DNA from: a virus
Direction: 5' to 3' (one strand)
DNA length: 25,407 bases
Virus record (IMG/VR): IMGVR_UViG_3300034071_000344
Location: 1-25,407 of that record
Made by a program: the position numbers and the translations under genes. The notes under the pieces were generated by a model. That model had not been told where the DNA came from. It did not search any database and saw only the letters and a list, made by a program, of their open reading frames with translations. This document shows positions 22,793 through 25,407 of this stretch, in pieces (positions within the stretch are counted from its first letter, which is position 1; each line of letters begins with the position of its first letter).

Positions 22793-23242
22793 ATGGCTTA
22801 TAATAGTGAATATCATACAGAAAAAAAATTAAAAGAAATTCAAAATTGGGATATAAAAGACGCTCATAATTTGGTAAACAGATTGCGTGATATGTGGCAA
22901 TACAAAAACTACTTCACCGAAAATTGGGGGCTTGACCATATACATAAAGAAAGACCAGTTTTAATGCTTGAGTTACATACAGGAGGATGGAGTGGTAATG
23001 AAGATATAATTGAAGCATTACAGAAGCATAAATTATTTTGGATGATGTGGTGGTGGAAAACAGAAAGAGGCGGACATTATTATTTTGAAGTTGATTTTTC
23101 TGCAATAGGATTTAAGCCAGTAAATAAATTTACAAAGGAAAATAAACTCACAAGGCAGTATGTTTCAAAAGCAAAAGCAAAATTTGATTGGATTAAAATA
23201 TCGCATACTAAAAGACTTATCCGTGCAGTAGCAAAAGTTTAA
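22793..23242 (+). CDS. Conserved-looking phage hypothetical protein (149 aa)
   Basis: The 149-residue product has a distinctive core: LMLELHTGGWSGNEDIIEAL followed by HKLFWMMWWWKTERGGHYYF at about residues 56-100. This LELHTGGWSGNE plus aromatic cluster plus RGGHYYF pattern is one I associate with small proteins found across many phages and mobile elements, without known function. The N-terminus is helical and charged, the C-terminus basic. An attC-like palindrome begins 8 bases after its stop, so this gene could be the last backbone gene or the first cassette gene. Confidence 0.72.
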   Translation: MAYNSEYHTEKKLKEIQNWDIKDAHNLVNRLRDMWQYKNYFTENWGLDHIHKERPVLMLELHTGGWSGNEDIIEALQKHKLFWMMWWWKTERGGHYYFEVDFSAIGFKPVNKFTKENKLTRQYVSKAKAKFDWIKISHTKRLIRAVAKV

Positions 23243-23250
23243 AATATTGC

Positions 23251-23384
23251 CCATAACGGAATTGGGCTAAACGCAGTAGGATGACAGCAGCACAGCAGAT
23301 AAGATGGAAGCAACAGACGGTAAATGTGCATTACCCTATGTTCATAGCAGGACACTCCCTATTGCGTTTTAGCCTATGTTATAT
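23251..23384 (+). repeat. attC-like imperfect palindrome A
   Basis: Outer boxes CCATAAC (23251-23257) and GTTATAT (23378-23384) pair over ATAAC/GTTAT. Inside, after unpaired spacers (7 and 3 bases), GGCTAAACGCAGTAGG (23265-23280) pairs with CCTATTGCGTTTTAGCC (23358-23374): 16 pairs, one bulged T (23367) and one G-U. The 77-base loop has its own small hairpins at 23319-23335 and 23336-23347. Total 134 bp, within the known attC range. It follows an ORF stop in the same orientation, as integron cassette recombination sites do. Confidence 0.55.
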
Positions 23385-23454
23385 GAAGTGCCGACTTATT
23401 TAGCACAAAACTTGAATTGAAACGATAAACAGAAAAACAAAAACAAAAAAAGCG

Positions 23455-23598
23455 ATGGAAGAATATAAAAAAATACCTAATAAAAAGGTTTCAGATTTTG
23501 GGAAAAGATTGAGAGATAAATCCAAAATAGAAGACCGTGAGTTTATAAAAAAACAACAAATATCTTTAATTAAAGCAAAAAAAATAATAGTAAGATGA
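23455..23598 (+). CDS. Small basic hypothetical protein (47 aa)
   Basis: A 47-codon frame from ATG 23455 to TGA 23596-23598. The product is extremely Lys-rich (MEEYKKIPNKKVSDFGKRLR, then IKKQQISLIKAKKIIVR) and helical, with no recognised family. The stop overlaps the next start as ATGA, so the two are likely translated together. It is the first gene after attC-like site A, 70 bases beyond its right box. Confidence 0.5.
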   Translation: MEEYKKIPNKKVSDFGKRLRDKSKIEDREFIKKQQISLIKAKKIIVR

Positions 23599-23921
23599 AA
23601 ACAGCAGTAGATTGGTTAATTGAACAATTAACTCCTTCAATATCGTTGCAACAAAAACATATTGATAAATTAAAAGAAAAAGCAAAAGAAATAGAACAGT
23701 TACAATTTAATAAAATGACAGAGGCATTTATAAAAAACAGAGAACAAACAAGACCATTAGTATTTGAAAATGGTTTTTTTGCTGGATTTGAATATGCTTT
23801 AAAAAGTTCAGAAGATTATTACGAGAAACTTGAAAAAACAAAATTTGCAGATGATGACTTCACAAAAGATTACCTGCAAGAAAAAAGTAATGAAATTTAT
23901 AATGAAAAATTTAACAAATAA
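23595..23921 (+). CDS. Hypothetical helical protein (108 aa)
   Basis: The 108-residue protein starts MKTAVDWLIEQLTPSISLQQ and continues with Lys/Glu-rich helices (HIDKLKEKAKEIEQLQFNKM), an aromatic turn (FENGFFAGFEYALKSSEDYY) and a charged end. The opening T-A-V-x-W-L-x-x-Q-L plus a KAKEIE helix occurs in many short Bacteroidota phage proteins of unknown function. It is coupled upstream through ATGA and followed by another hypothetical gene after 5 bases; all lie between attC-like sites A and B. Confidence 0.68.
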   Translation: MKTAVDWLIEQLTPSISLQQKHIDKLKEKAKEIEQLQFNKMTEAFIKNREQTRPLVFENGFFAGFEYALKSSEDYYEKLEKTKFADDDFTKDYLQEKSNEIYNEKFNK

Positions 23922-23926
23922 ATAAA

Positions 23927-24223
23927 ATGGCAGACGAAAGAGATTTAAAACACTTTGCTGAAATAGCAAACGAAAACAAACCAAAATTCAAGTTTGAAAA
24001 TTCAATGCAACTTGCTTTGGTTTTAGATGTGAAACACAATGAACTGATGAAGTTTTATTGGTATTTAGAAAATCAAATAGTTAAAAGAAGGCATTTGATT
24101 AGATGCTGTTTAGTTGTTACTGATGAGGGAAACGACTTTATAAAAGATATGTCAGATGCTTTTATACTTGCTGCATTTGTTCATTTTGGTAAAAAGAATA
24201 GTTTAACCATAAATGATTTTTAA
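23927..24223 (+). CDS. Hypothetical protein (98 aa)
   Basis: Unrecognised 98-residue protein with a charged N-terminus (ADERDLKHFAEIANENKPKF), a helix LALVLDVKHNELMKFYWYLE, two adjacent Cys residues in RHLIRCCLVVTDEGNDF, and an amphipathic C-terminal helix (DMSDAFILAAFVHFGKKN). No catalytic motif. It ends the three-gene run between attC-like sites A and B and is followed at once by a terminator-like hairpin. Confidence 0.62.
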   Translation: MADERDLKHFAEIANENKPKFKFENSMQLALVLDVKHNELMKFYWYLENQIVKRRHLIRCCLVVTDEGNDFIKDMSDAFILAAFVHFGKKNSLTINDF

Positions 24224-24250
24224 AAGTGCGGTGGCTTTTTTCTTTTTGTT
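24222..24250 (+). terminator. Terminator-like hairpin after the three-gene run
   Basis: AAAAGT (24222-24227) pairs with GCTTTT (24234-24239, ending in a longer T-run) around a GC-rich 6-base loop, and the following bases to 24250 are mostly T. It begins at the stop codon of the 98-residue gene. Short A/U-rich stems with a GC core are common for Bacteroidota terminators. Confidence 0.55.
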
Positions 24251-24295
24251 TTTCCTTCACGGAACTTCAATTGGAAACAGTCAGCAAGGCATTTC

Positions 24296-24388
24296 ATATA
24301 ACGGTTGGGTATATGTGAAGTACCGTAACACAAAACTTAAATAATTAGTAGAAACTTTATGAGGTATTTCACATATACCTTGTTATAT
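24296..24388 (+). repeat. attC-like imperfect palindrome B
   Basis: ATATAAC (24296-24302) and GTTATAT (24382-24388) are perfectly complementary outer boxes. After unpaired spacers (5 and 3 bases), GGTATATGTGAAGTACC (24308-24324) pairs with GGTATTTCACATATACC (24363-24379) over 17 positions with a single G-U. The loop is 38 bases. At 93 bp with box-spacer-stem-loop order, this is the cleanest of the three attC-like sites. It shares ATAACGG and a following TGGG with site A. Confidence 0.58.
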
Positions 24389-24390
24389 TT

Positions 24391-24482
24391 AGTTAGTGTG
24401 ATTGATGTAAAACAAAGGGCAGGGCACAAAGATACTGAACATCGGGAGAGGTCGAGGAACTTCCATCATCAACACACTAATT
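24391..24482 (+). other. Long hairpin in an ORF-less stretch, possible structured RNA
   Basis: TTAGTGTG (24393-24400) plus TTGATG (24402-24407) pair with CATCAA (24467-24472) plus CACACTAA (24473-24480): 14 pairs with one bulged A, extendable by two pairs outside. The interior (about 59 bases) is richer in G than its surroundings and can form a smaller stem GAGGT/ACTTC (about 24448-24463). No ORF fits. It fills the space between attC-like sites B and C. It could be a non-coding RNA, a further recombination site or a folded remnant. Confidence 0.45.
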
Positions 24483-24484
24483 GA

Positions 24485-24614
24485 ATATAACGGATGGTGC
24501 TTTGCGAAGGCGGGGCTTAGAAAAACAAATGTTGAATTAACCACAAAAGATAATTAGATGCAGAAAGTTGAAAATATAGACGAAACCCCCGCTTTTGCCA
24601 AACCCGTGTTACAG
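24485..24614 (+). repeat. attC-like imperfect palindrome C, overlapping the methyltransferase start
   Basis: Left box ATATAAC (24485-24491) followed by GG; right box GTTACAG (24608-24614), pairing over TAAC/GTTA. The inner arms TTTGCGAAGGCGGGG (24501-24515) and CCCCGCTTTTGCCAAA (24587-24602) form 15 pairs with one bulged C and two G-U. Loop 71 bases. The GC-rich arms stand out in AT-rich DNA. The right arm doubles as coding sequence for the predicted methyltransferase N-terminus. Confidence 0.52.
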
Positions 24615-25280
24615 GCAGTACGGGTTTTAAACCTATACGCTTGTCTTGGTGGTAATCGTTACAAGTGGGATGAAGTGGCAAATATTGAAGTAACCGCAAT
24701 AGAACTTGACCCCGAATTGGCACGAATGTATAAAGAGAGATTTCCAAATGATACGGTTATAGTTGCTGATGCTCACGAATACTTGCTTAACAACTATATG
24801 AATTTTGATTTTATCTGGAGTTCGCCACCTTGCCCATCACATAGTAGAATAAGATTTGGACAAGCTAATAGTGAAAGAGAAAATTACAACCCAATTTATC
24901 CCGATATGACATTGTATCAAGAAATCATTTTTTTAGACAATTACTATAAAGGGAAATATGTAGTTGAAAACGTGATACCATTTTATGAGCCATTGATACC
25001 AGCAAAAAAACGAGGAAGACATTTATACTGGTGTAATTTTAATTTACCAAATGAATTGAATGGCAGACCACAACCAAAAGGATTTATTGAAACAGGAAGT
25101 AAACCTAATGAGATATTTCACGAAATAGATTTGAGTAGTTATAAAGGCGAACAAAGGAAAGATAAAATTGCTTGTAACCTTGTTGATTACGAAGTCGGGA
25201 AAACAATATTTGCAACAGCTATGGGCGTAATACTAAAATCTAATGTTAAACAAAATTCTCTATTCGGAGATGGATGGTAG
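24558..25280 (+). CDS. DNA cytosine-5 methyltransferase
   Basis: The 240-residue protein has the order of C5 DNA methyltransferase motifs. Motif I is LNLYACLGGNR (residues 24-34), with Glu49 and Asp51 (IELDPE) in motif II. Motif IV is SSPPCPSHS (88-96) with catalytic Cys92. Motif VI is ENV (137-139), and RGRHLYW (about 152-158) resembles motif VIII. It would transfer a methyl group to C5 of cytosine, probably to shield phage DNA from restriction; no partner nuclease is seen. It is short, leaving little room for a target domain. Residues 1-16 come from the arm of attC-like site C. GTG 24606 (residue 17) is an alternative start that keeps all motifs. Confidence 0.88.
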   Translation: MQKVENIDETPAFAKPVLQAVRVLNLYACLGGNRYKWDEVANIEVTAIELDPELARMYKERFPNDTVIVADAHEYLLNNYMNFDFIWSSPPCPSHSRIRFGQANSERENYNPIYPDMTLYQEIIFLDNYYKGKYVVENVIPFYEPLIPAKKRGRHLYWCNFNLPNELNGRPQPKGFIETGSKPNEIFHEIDLSSYKGEQRKDKIACNLVDYEVGKTIFATAMGVILKSNVKQNSLFGDGW

Positions 25281-25293
25281 TATTGCCTATAAC
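25281..25293 (+). repeat. Lone left box of an attC-like site after the methyltransferase
   Basis: TATTGCCTATAAC at 25281-25293 matches TATTGCCCATAAC at 23245-23257, the left end of site A, at 12 of 13 positions. Both follow an ORF stop within a few bases. No matching inner arm or right box was found downstream, so this looks like a truncated or degenerate site. Confidence 0.4.
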
Positions 25294-25337
25294 TAATCTG
25301 TAAGAGAGATAAAACTAAATATTAAACTTTTAAAAAT

Positions 25338-25407
25338 ATGCAAGTTACAATTAATTATAATTTGAAATGGCAGCTAAATACAGCCCCGAATTATCAATTT
25401 ACGGACA
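25338..25407 (+). CDS. Phage hypothetical protein, N-terminal part (partial)
   Basis: A frame opens at ATG 25338 after an A-rich leader and runs off the end of the window with 23 complete codons. It reads MQVTINYNLKWQLNTAPNYQ and then F-T-D. The NYxLKWQ...APNYxFT opening resembles the first residues of small phage or mobile-element proteins in early regions of Bacteroidota phages, whose function I cannot name. It marks the return to phage-like coding after the cassette-like block. Confidence 0.55.
   Translation, partial: MQVTINYNLKWQLNTAPNYQFTD

Follow-up and report, generated by a model that had tools for sequence, protein, structure and literature searches.

What moves gene cassettes in a phage that shows no integrase of its own? 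This question is raised by virus record IMGVR_UViG_3300034071_000344, a stretch of 25,407 bases (hereafter the window) that is classed as viral by IMG/VR and comes from a Bacteroidota phage. Between 23.2 and 25.3 kb, the window holds three imperfect palindromes with ATAACGG at the left of each (23253–23259, 24298–24304 and 24487–24493), together with small open reading frames (ORFs), an ORF-less hairpin, a methyltransferase gene and a closing TATAAC box. An earlier note on this DNA had read the block as integron-like gene cassettes delimited by attC sites, and we located all the parts it had named: the palindromes, the three units (a small-ORF segment, an ORF-less hairpin segment and a methyltransferase) and the lone box that closes the array at 25288–25293. 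We consider it likely that the block (23257–25292) is an integron-type cassette array, with no integrase of its own in view, that is moved by an IntI-like Bacteroidota recombinase. As the note had said of the integrase, no integron integrase was matched in the window, which stops about 115 bases past the array, the DNA beyond being known from sibling phages alone; the array therefore probably either relies on an enzyme acting in trans or has lost the integrase it once had.

In the mechanism that we propose, each cassette would be a minus-strand unit running from TT through the reverse complement of its ORF to AAC, the attC hairpin and a final G. A tyrosine recombinase would insert or exchange such units at G|TT (AA|C on the plus strand), acting on the folded attC strand.

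attC-type sites and their polarity

Site 2 (z -3.9) and the 110-nt ORF-less hairpin segment of cassette B (24382–24491; z -4.0) fold better than shuffled sequence, and sites 1 (z -0.7) and 3 (z +1.0) do not. A naive scan of the window for AAC-hairpin-GTT did not outperform shuffled sequence, and an Rfam search at gathering thresholds found nothing. Folding alone is insufficient to prove attC sites.

A pattern derived from site 3 returned 58 loci, almost all from Bacteroidota. When 19 chromosomal and 8 phage sites were aligned, AACA...CGTT was invariant in all 27, with a preceding T in nearly all. Eight class 1 attC sites from plasmids read TAAC[ACT]...CGTTA; the Bacteroidota sites therefore read from TAACA to CGTTA, which is the minus strand in the window. 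The proposed stem was paired in 88% of cells, with a covariation score of 0.265 versus 0.126 for column shuffles and at most 0.098 when the stem was slid. This stem was given by hand, replacing an RNAalifold structure for model R1 that held merely 7 pairs. A covariance model from the eight class 1 attC sites was also considered, and dropped for an alignment that was too heterogeneous.

A covariance-model search of the kind that the note had called for was run with R3, a model built from the 19 chromosomal Bacteroidota sites only, with no phage sites in training; every position of the window was scored, without filters. R3 blindly recovered exactly the three window sites, all on the minus strand, with E-values, rough owing to short calibration, of 2.5e-17 (site 3), 7e-5 (site 2) and 0.003 (site 1). 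The sole further match at E≤1 was the opposite-strand shadow of site 3. R3 matches were also obtained in phages outside any training set (L008, L005, L070, L016, L010 and hemulen6-1). Site 1 scored 45.3 bits with a second model, R2, but belongs to the R2 training set. We regard the R3 hold-out as the decisive comparative evidence that the window sites are of attC type.

We judge it extremely improbable that terminators of transcription or hairpins of some other kind account for the palindromes, and ordinary phage mosaicism for the gene variation. The weak folding of sites 1 and 3 would suit that explanation, but the strand-specific hold-out matches, the covariation and the linkage of arrays to recombinases (below) argue against it. 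The sites share what is expected of attC, namely a conserved core at R'' and R' (the right and left ends in the window), a variable inner sequence and a conserved fold. With three of them and no integron integrase match in the window, the block also has the make-up of a cluster of attC sites lacking integron integrases (CALIN), that is, at least two attC sites with no integrase nearby. The note had set the palindromes apart from miniature inverted-repeat transposable elements (MITEs) and repetitive extragenic palindromic (REP) copies. A transposon, insertion sequence or MITE was rejected, the cassette ends varying between cassettes and agreeing only within one, although no search was aimed at transposases.

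The note had placed the sites in the orientation of the genes. Their common orientation was upheld; the agreement with the genes was not, all three sites lying on the minus strand and the genes on the plus strand. An attC polarity that follows the genes was rejected on the basis of the core alignment, the class 1 cores, the minus-strand R3 matches and ORF counts, in which each attC was read on its own strand and the longest of the ORFs close to its R'' side was scored. Among chromosomal sites near integrases, this ORF was sense in 25 of the 28 scored and antisense in 3. It was antisense at 31 of 32 scored sites in phages that had been identified independently of any integrase, and at 34 of 35 sites in integrase-bearing viral contigs. 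The totals, 65 antisense to 2 sense in phages versus 25 sense to 3 antisense in chromosomes, differ with a Fisher p of ~2e-17, sites within an array being non-independent. The stop codon in phage cassettes often shares bases with the R' box or directly adjoins it, and translation would begin past the attC or within it; phage sites do not have the classical integron arrangement of genes in the sense of the attC with R'' after the stop codon. Because the attC is antisense to the genes, each hairpin belongs with the gene to its right. For the same reason the ORFs lie on the phage coding strand, and they are probably read from phage transcripts.

Three binned contigs from metagenome-assembled genomes (MAGs), classed as chromosomal, show the phage-type polarity (L174, L199 and L210), and L174 repeats the beginning of a cassette of phage L002 almost letter for letter; these may be phage contigs inside bins. 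A typical Bacteroidota site also occurs in a spirochaete-assigned contig (L209, labelled Treponema sp. MAG), reflecting either cross-phylum transfer or misbinning.

In integrons, the R' and R'' of one cassette match, and in the Bacteroidota family the match extends further. The start and end of one cassette are complementary past GTT/AAC, in phages at 10.7 of 18 positions within cassettes versus 5.7 between them. For positions 5–18, 0 of 2000 permutations reached the observed value, and chromosomal arrays behaved alike. In the cassettes of L010 and of the window, end pairing extends beyond the R boxes, often past a short mismatch, a pattern found in phages and chromosomes alike.

Cassette exchange among sibling phages

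Two protein searches returned sibling contigs with the conserved left-flank genes. In those that also hold the right flank (L001, L002, L003, L004, L085 and L087), the flanks are kept and the content is wholly or partly replaced. Only ~200 bp lie between the flanks in L003; L001 has two ORFs and an N6/N4 methyltransferase, L002 has two methyltransferases, and both L004 and L161 have the first cassette of the window with a different C5 methyltransferase. The comparison with related phages proposed in the note thus found siblings that are discontinuous across the boundaries and differ in cassette content, with one exchange whose edges fall at the predicted crossovers.

This exchange is seen between the window and L161 and L164, the latter being the whole contig of L004. 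Window positions 23254–24306 are 99.8% identical to both (2 mismatches in 1,053 nt), in a background where the left flank has 87% identity to L164 over 1.75 kb and 93% to L161 over 228 nt, and the right flank 84% over 99 nt. Such a near-identical cassette in a diverged background implies recent movement. The shared block has its left edge at TAAC|GG and its right edge at TAAC|GGTT, as for a discrete unit exchanged at G|TT; taken together, this exchange and the junctions of the window phage (..ATAAC|G on the left, ..AAC|TAATCTG on the right) fit minus-strand G|TT crossovers. L164 and L161 were assembled separately, and 970 nt of the block recur at 100% in a third contig, L165, which speaks against a chimaera made in assembly.

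Exchange by homologous recombination between phages alone, with the hairpins as incidental shared sequence, would draw on the mosaicism of phages and on site 1, which provides 134 bp of homology common to the window, L001 and L161. The window and L001 have hairpin 1 in common, but their divergence begins on its R'' side (23379) instead of at R'; one G|TT crossover offers no explanation for this edge, and homologous recombination inside hairpin 1 could. As a full account we find it quite doubtful, because both edges of the L164 block coincide with an R' site boundary at which the adjacent hairpins differ in sequence, arrays elsewhere adjoin recombinases, and complementary cassette ends are a property of site-specific units. 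It is very improbable that the block is a dead relic, an old inherited array in which recombination has ceased. The PF00589 search found no recombinase in the closest siblings of the window, and the match to a candidate attI (below) is weak, as a relic would have it, but the movement suggested by the L164 cassette is recent and content varies among close siblings.

If the block is a recombinase-moved array, new cassettes would probably enter at its right end (25293). In phages that bear an integrase, the counterpart of the right junction (25288–25340) is the integrase-proximal (attI) end, and on this ground the methyltransferase cassette is probably the newest. The leftmost hairpin is common to the window, L001 and L161 while the rightmost cassette differs, in keeping with right-end entry. 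In L161 (507–580) and L004 (3299–3372), the DNA upstream of the shared cassette contains a diverged second copy of the right-junction region (TAACTAATTGGTAAAATAGATAAAAC..), as though there were another target for insertion.

Array-linked recombinases without the IntI domain

All 25 of 25 host genomes of such sites have TIGR02249 matches at E≤1e-20. Some of this is background signal, 4 control genomes out of 14 having matches too and a number of the host matches resembling Xer, but a single protein in most hosts aligns with TIGR02249 in two pieces (~2–180 and 237–315), the middle being absent. Family sites, often arrays, surround many such genes; L311, for instance, has nine sites by the enzyme, and L289 has six. 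In a set of 118 sampled Bacteroidota genomes, sites were found in 54, the enzyme (alignment A2, E≤1e-60) in 45 and both in 37 (Fisher p 3e-10, uncorrected for phylogeny).

The array-linked enzymes have 63–69 residues between KDR and HxLRH, versus 105 in IntI1 and two other true IntIs, and are without the IntI-specific domain of ~41 residues. In maximum-likelihood trees, IntI forms one clade (100/99 and 100/100) and the array-linked enzymes fall outside both IntI and Xer; in the first tree a divergent row that is not array-linked (L272) adjoins IntI. The window itself holds no IntI integrase with an IntI-specific domain. As the array-linked recombinases are without this domain and outside the IntI clade, an integron in the strict sense fails here; of the note's integron-like cassettes, what was borne out are the attC-type sites and the exchanged units.

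Among named families, the XerA-type NF040815 ('site-specific tyrosine recombinase/integron integrase') ranks first or second for the array-linked enzymes, but 7 of the 8 chromosomal enzymes tested fall just below its cut-off, the L010 phage enzyme falls below it too, and its name implies no array. Many carry an N-terminal extension with no gathering-level Pfam match; in many enzymes of the Bacteroidota integrase loci L270–L289 and L307–L316 this extension shows a W-containing motif (..KWSxSxKAWxxP..) that recurs between enzymes and is present in several copies in the longest extensions. At least 28 family sites are spread over ~490 kb of the Bacteroidota bacterium SSA2 chromosome (G021, CP058707.1, ~3,496,021–3,986,835). 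Those listed are all on the minus strand, and the run ends adjoining an IntI-like recombinase without the IntI domain, making this a possible giant chromosomal cassette array.

Phages encode such enzymes as well. L010, a 41-kb phage, has a 277-aa array-type enzyme directly beside its five sites. When viral contigs were scanned for the enzyme irrespective of any sites, 80 loci were returned, and 11 of these (L328, L334, L338, L340, L342, L344, L345, L348, L349, L353 and L362) have family sites, always on the strand opposite to the enzyme. With L010, the viral contigs that have such an enzyme at an array locus number at least 12. A terminase match was found in 5 of the 13 records tested, and some of the enzyme-bearing contigs may be prophages or fragments. 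The phage-array enzymes included in the tree, those of L010, L328, L334, L338, L340 and L342, form a clade with L341 (98/83). Just before the integrase, seven of the integrase-bearing viral contigs have a sequence resembling AAC|TATTATATGTAAAA, which we treat as a candidate attI. The enzyme that serves the window could come from the host chromosome, or from a co-infecting or ancestral phage in which it is encoded beside such an array.

A conventional CALIN, with cassettes taken from a classical integron and mobilized by a true host IntI that has the IntI-specific domain, would also fit the attC architecture and cassette behaviour. IntI1 can use phage attC sites in tests, according to Qi et al. 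2023 (PMC9892861), and true IntIs were present in 15 genomes out of 61 from a class with site-bearing members. Within the 118-genome survey, however, family sites are listed in three genomes with a true IntI (G044, G080 and G103) and not in four others (G029, G039, G056 and G060), and family sites track the enzymes without the IntI domain, which arrays adjoin. We therefore think this origin unlikely.

Besides the L001 edge, several points weigh against an array moved by an IntI-like recombinase. Cassette recombination itself was not observed, and we infer it from sequence comparison. The IntI-specific domain is treated as defining and as necessary for integron recombination (PMC9668308); the enzymes described here are without it, and may have another activity instead of cassette recombination. 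Common ancestry may contribute to the co-occurrence of sites and enzymes. PF00589 matches were absent from 15 of 16 array-bearing phage records, some of them fragments and L010 being the exception, and with no integron integrase in the window either, which enzyme acts there is a guess. The right junction of the window matches the candidate attI weakly (7/14). A clean empty site with both flanks was searched for and none was found; homology was limited to L246, which is the contig of L084 and has other phage DNA as its right flank.

On balance, we lean towards a wider proposal, in which Bacteroidota and their phages have a distinct cassette-recombination system parallel to integrons, built on attC-like hairpins and recombinases without the IntI domain. 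It would have a chromosomal branch, with sense cassettes and an array of ~490 kb in one genome, and a phage branch, with its own integrases, consistently inverted cassettes and methyltransferase cargo.

Cargo, known systems and features of the block

Cassettes often encode DNA methyltransferases: among ten cassette-region proteins tested, seven were DNA methyltransferases and three had no Pfam match. This cargo of small proteins of unknown function and orphan DNA methyltransferases presumably counters host restriction, a use of phage cassettes that PMC9892861 had suggested earlier. The phage CALINs presented there resemble the window in their attC-type sites and cassettes (virulent phages included), their methyltransferase cargo and the lack of an integrase. 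They differ in that one of the phages, Polaribacter phage P12002L, is without any site of the Bacteroidota family, and in that the study used IntI1 and found typical orientation in two phages, with no antisense rule or non-IntI integrase described in the text consulted.

Sedentary chromosomal integrons likewise have a tyrosine recombinase adjoining a one-direction attC-type array, with genes ending at R'' and the core TAACA..CGTTA, whereas the recombinases here are set apart by the missing domain, the frequent N-terminal extension and their place outside the IntI clade. Class 1 attC sites share the core TAAC..CGTTA and the folded imperfect repeat; unlike them, judging from the alignments, family sites have a spacer of ~5 nt by R' and next to none by R'', are without a consistent extra base in L'' and belong to cassettes whose ends pair beyond the R boxes. 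Phage CALINs are thus already known, and non-IntI integrases and systematic inversion appear new within the literature searched. That literature yielded no Bacteroidota integrons without the IntI domain, most subscription papers being outside its scope, and the IntegronFinder 2.0 paper names Salinibacter ruber as the only Bacteroidetes genome with a complete integron (PMC9024848).

The arrays beside an unrecognized kind of integrase, in phages and chromosomes, suggest a cassette-shuffling system that current integron definitions have missed. If this is true, integron-like capture would be commoner than surveyed, phages would own a cassette platform for trading anti-restriction genes, and whether the IntI domain is necessary for recombining folded attC DNA would become directly testable.

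The three attC-type sites bound three cassettes, A, B and C (Table 1).

Table 1. Features of the cassette block and its flanks, in window coordinates
Feature	Position	Strand	Basis or remark
Left-flank phage gene, conserved, 149 aa, function unknown	22793–23242	+	79–87% protein identity in sibling phages; no match in Pfam or PHROG
Left junction, phage DNA ending ..AAATATTGCCCATAA, final phage base before cassette A; predicted cut AA|C	23243–23256	.	..ATAAC junction also in L001, L002, L003 and L084
attC-type site 1	23251–23386	-	Hold-out model R3, 20.6 bits
Cassette A, putative unit, 1045 nt: site 1 and small ORFs on the opposite strand	23257–24301	-	Block 23254–24306 shared with L164/L161
ORF in cassette A, 47 aa, function unknown	23455–23598	+	Sequence; DUF6877 match sub-threshold only
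ORF in cassette A, 108 aa, function unknown	23595–23921	+	Sequence, Pfam and PHROG searches
ORF in cassette A, 98 aa, function unknown	23927–24223	+	Sequence, Pfam and PHROG searches
attC-type site 2	24296–24390	-	Hold-out model R3, 27.9 bits
Cassette B, putative unit, 189 nt, no ORF: site 2 and hairpin	24302–24490	-	Ends complementary 15/18
attC-type site 3	24485–24616	-	Hold-out model R3, 81.7 bits
Cassette C, putative unit, 802 nt: site 3 and methyltransferase on the opposite strand	24491–25292	-	AAC at 24489–24491 and 25291–25293; ends complementary 10/18
C5 cytosine-specific DNA methyltransferase, 240 aa	24558–25280	+	PF00145 E 1.3e-7, profile 2–105 of 324; phrog_363 E 2.4e-14
Right junction TATAAC|TAATCTGTAAGAG.. 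and conserved leader	25288–25340	.	Also in L001–L004 and L161

The ATG of the methyltransferase sits within the loop of site 3. Its Pfam match is restricted to the N-terminal third of the C5-methylase profile, and the protein may be a divergent or shortened enzyme.

Finally, Flavobacterium phage vB_FspS_hemulen6-1 (MN812208) has eight R2 matches, several of them weak, between antisense-read genes that include DNA methyltransferases. It differs from the window phage in belonging to another genus, its array is unannotated, and a PF00589 search found no tyrosine recombinase in it. As a cultured phage (locus L291, MN812208.1), it offers a ready experimental system.

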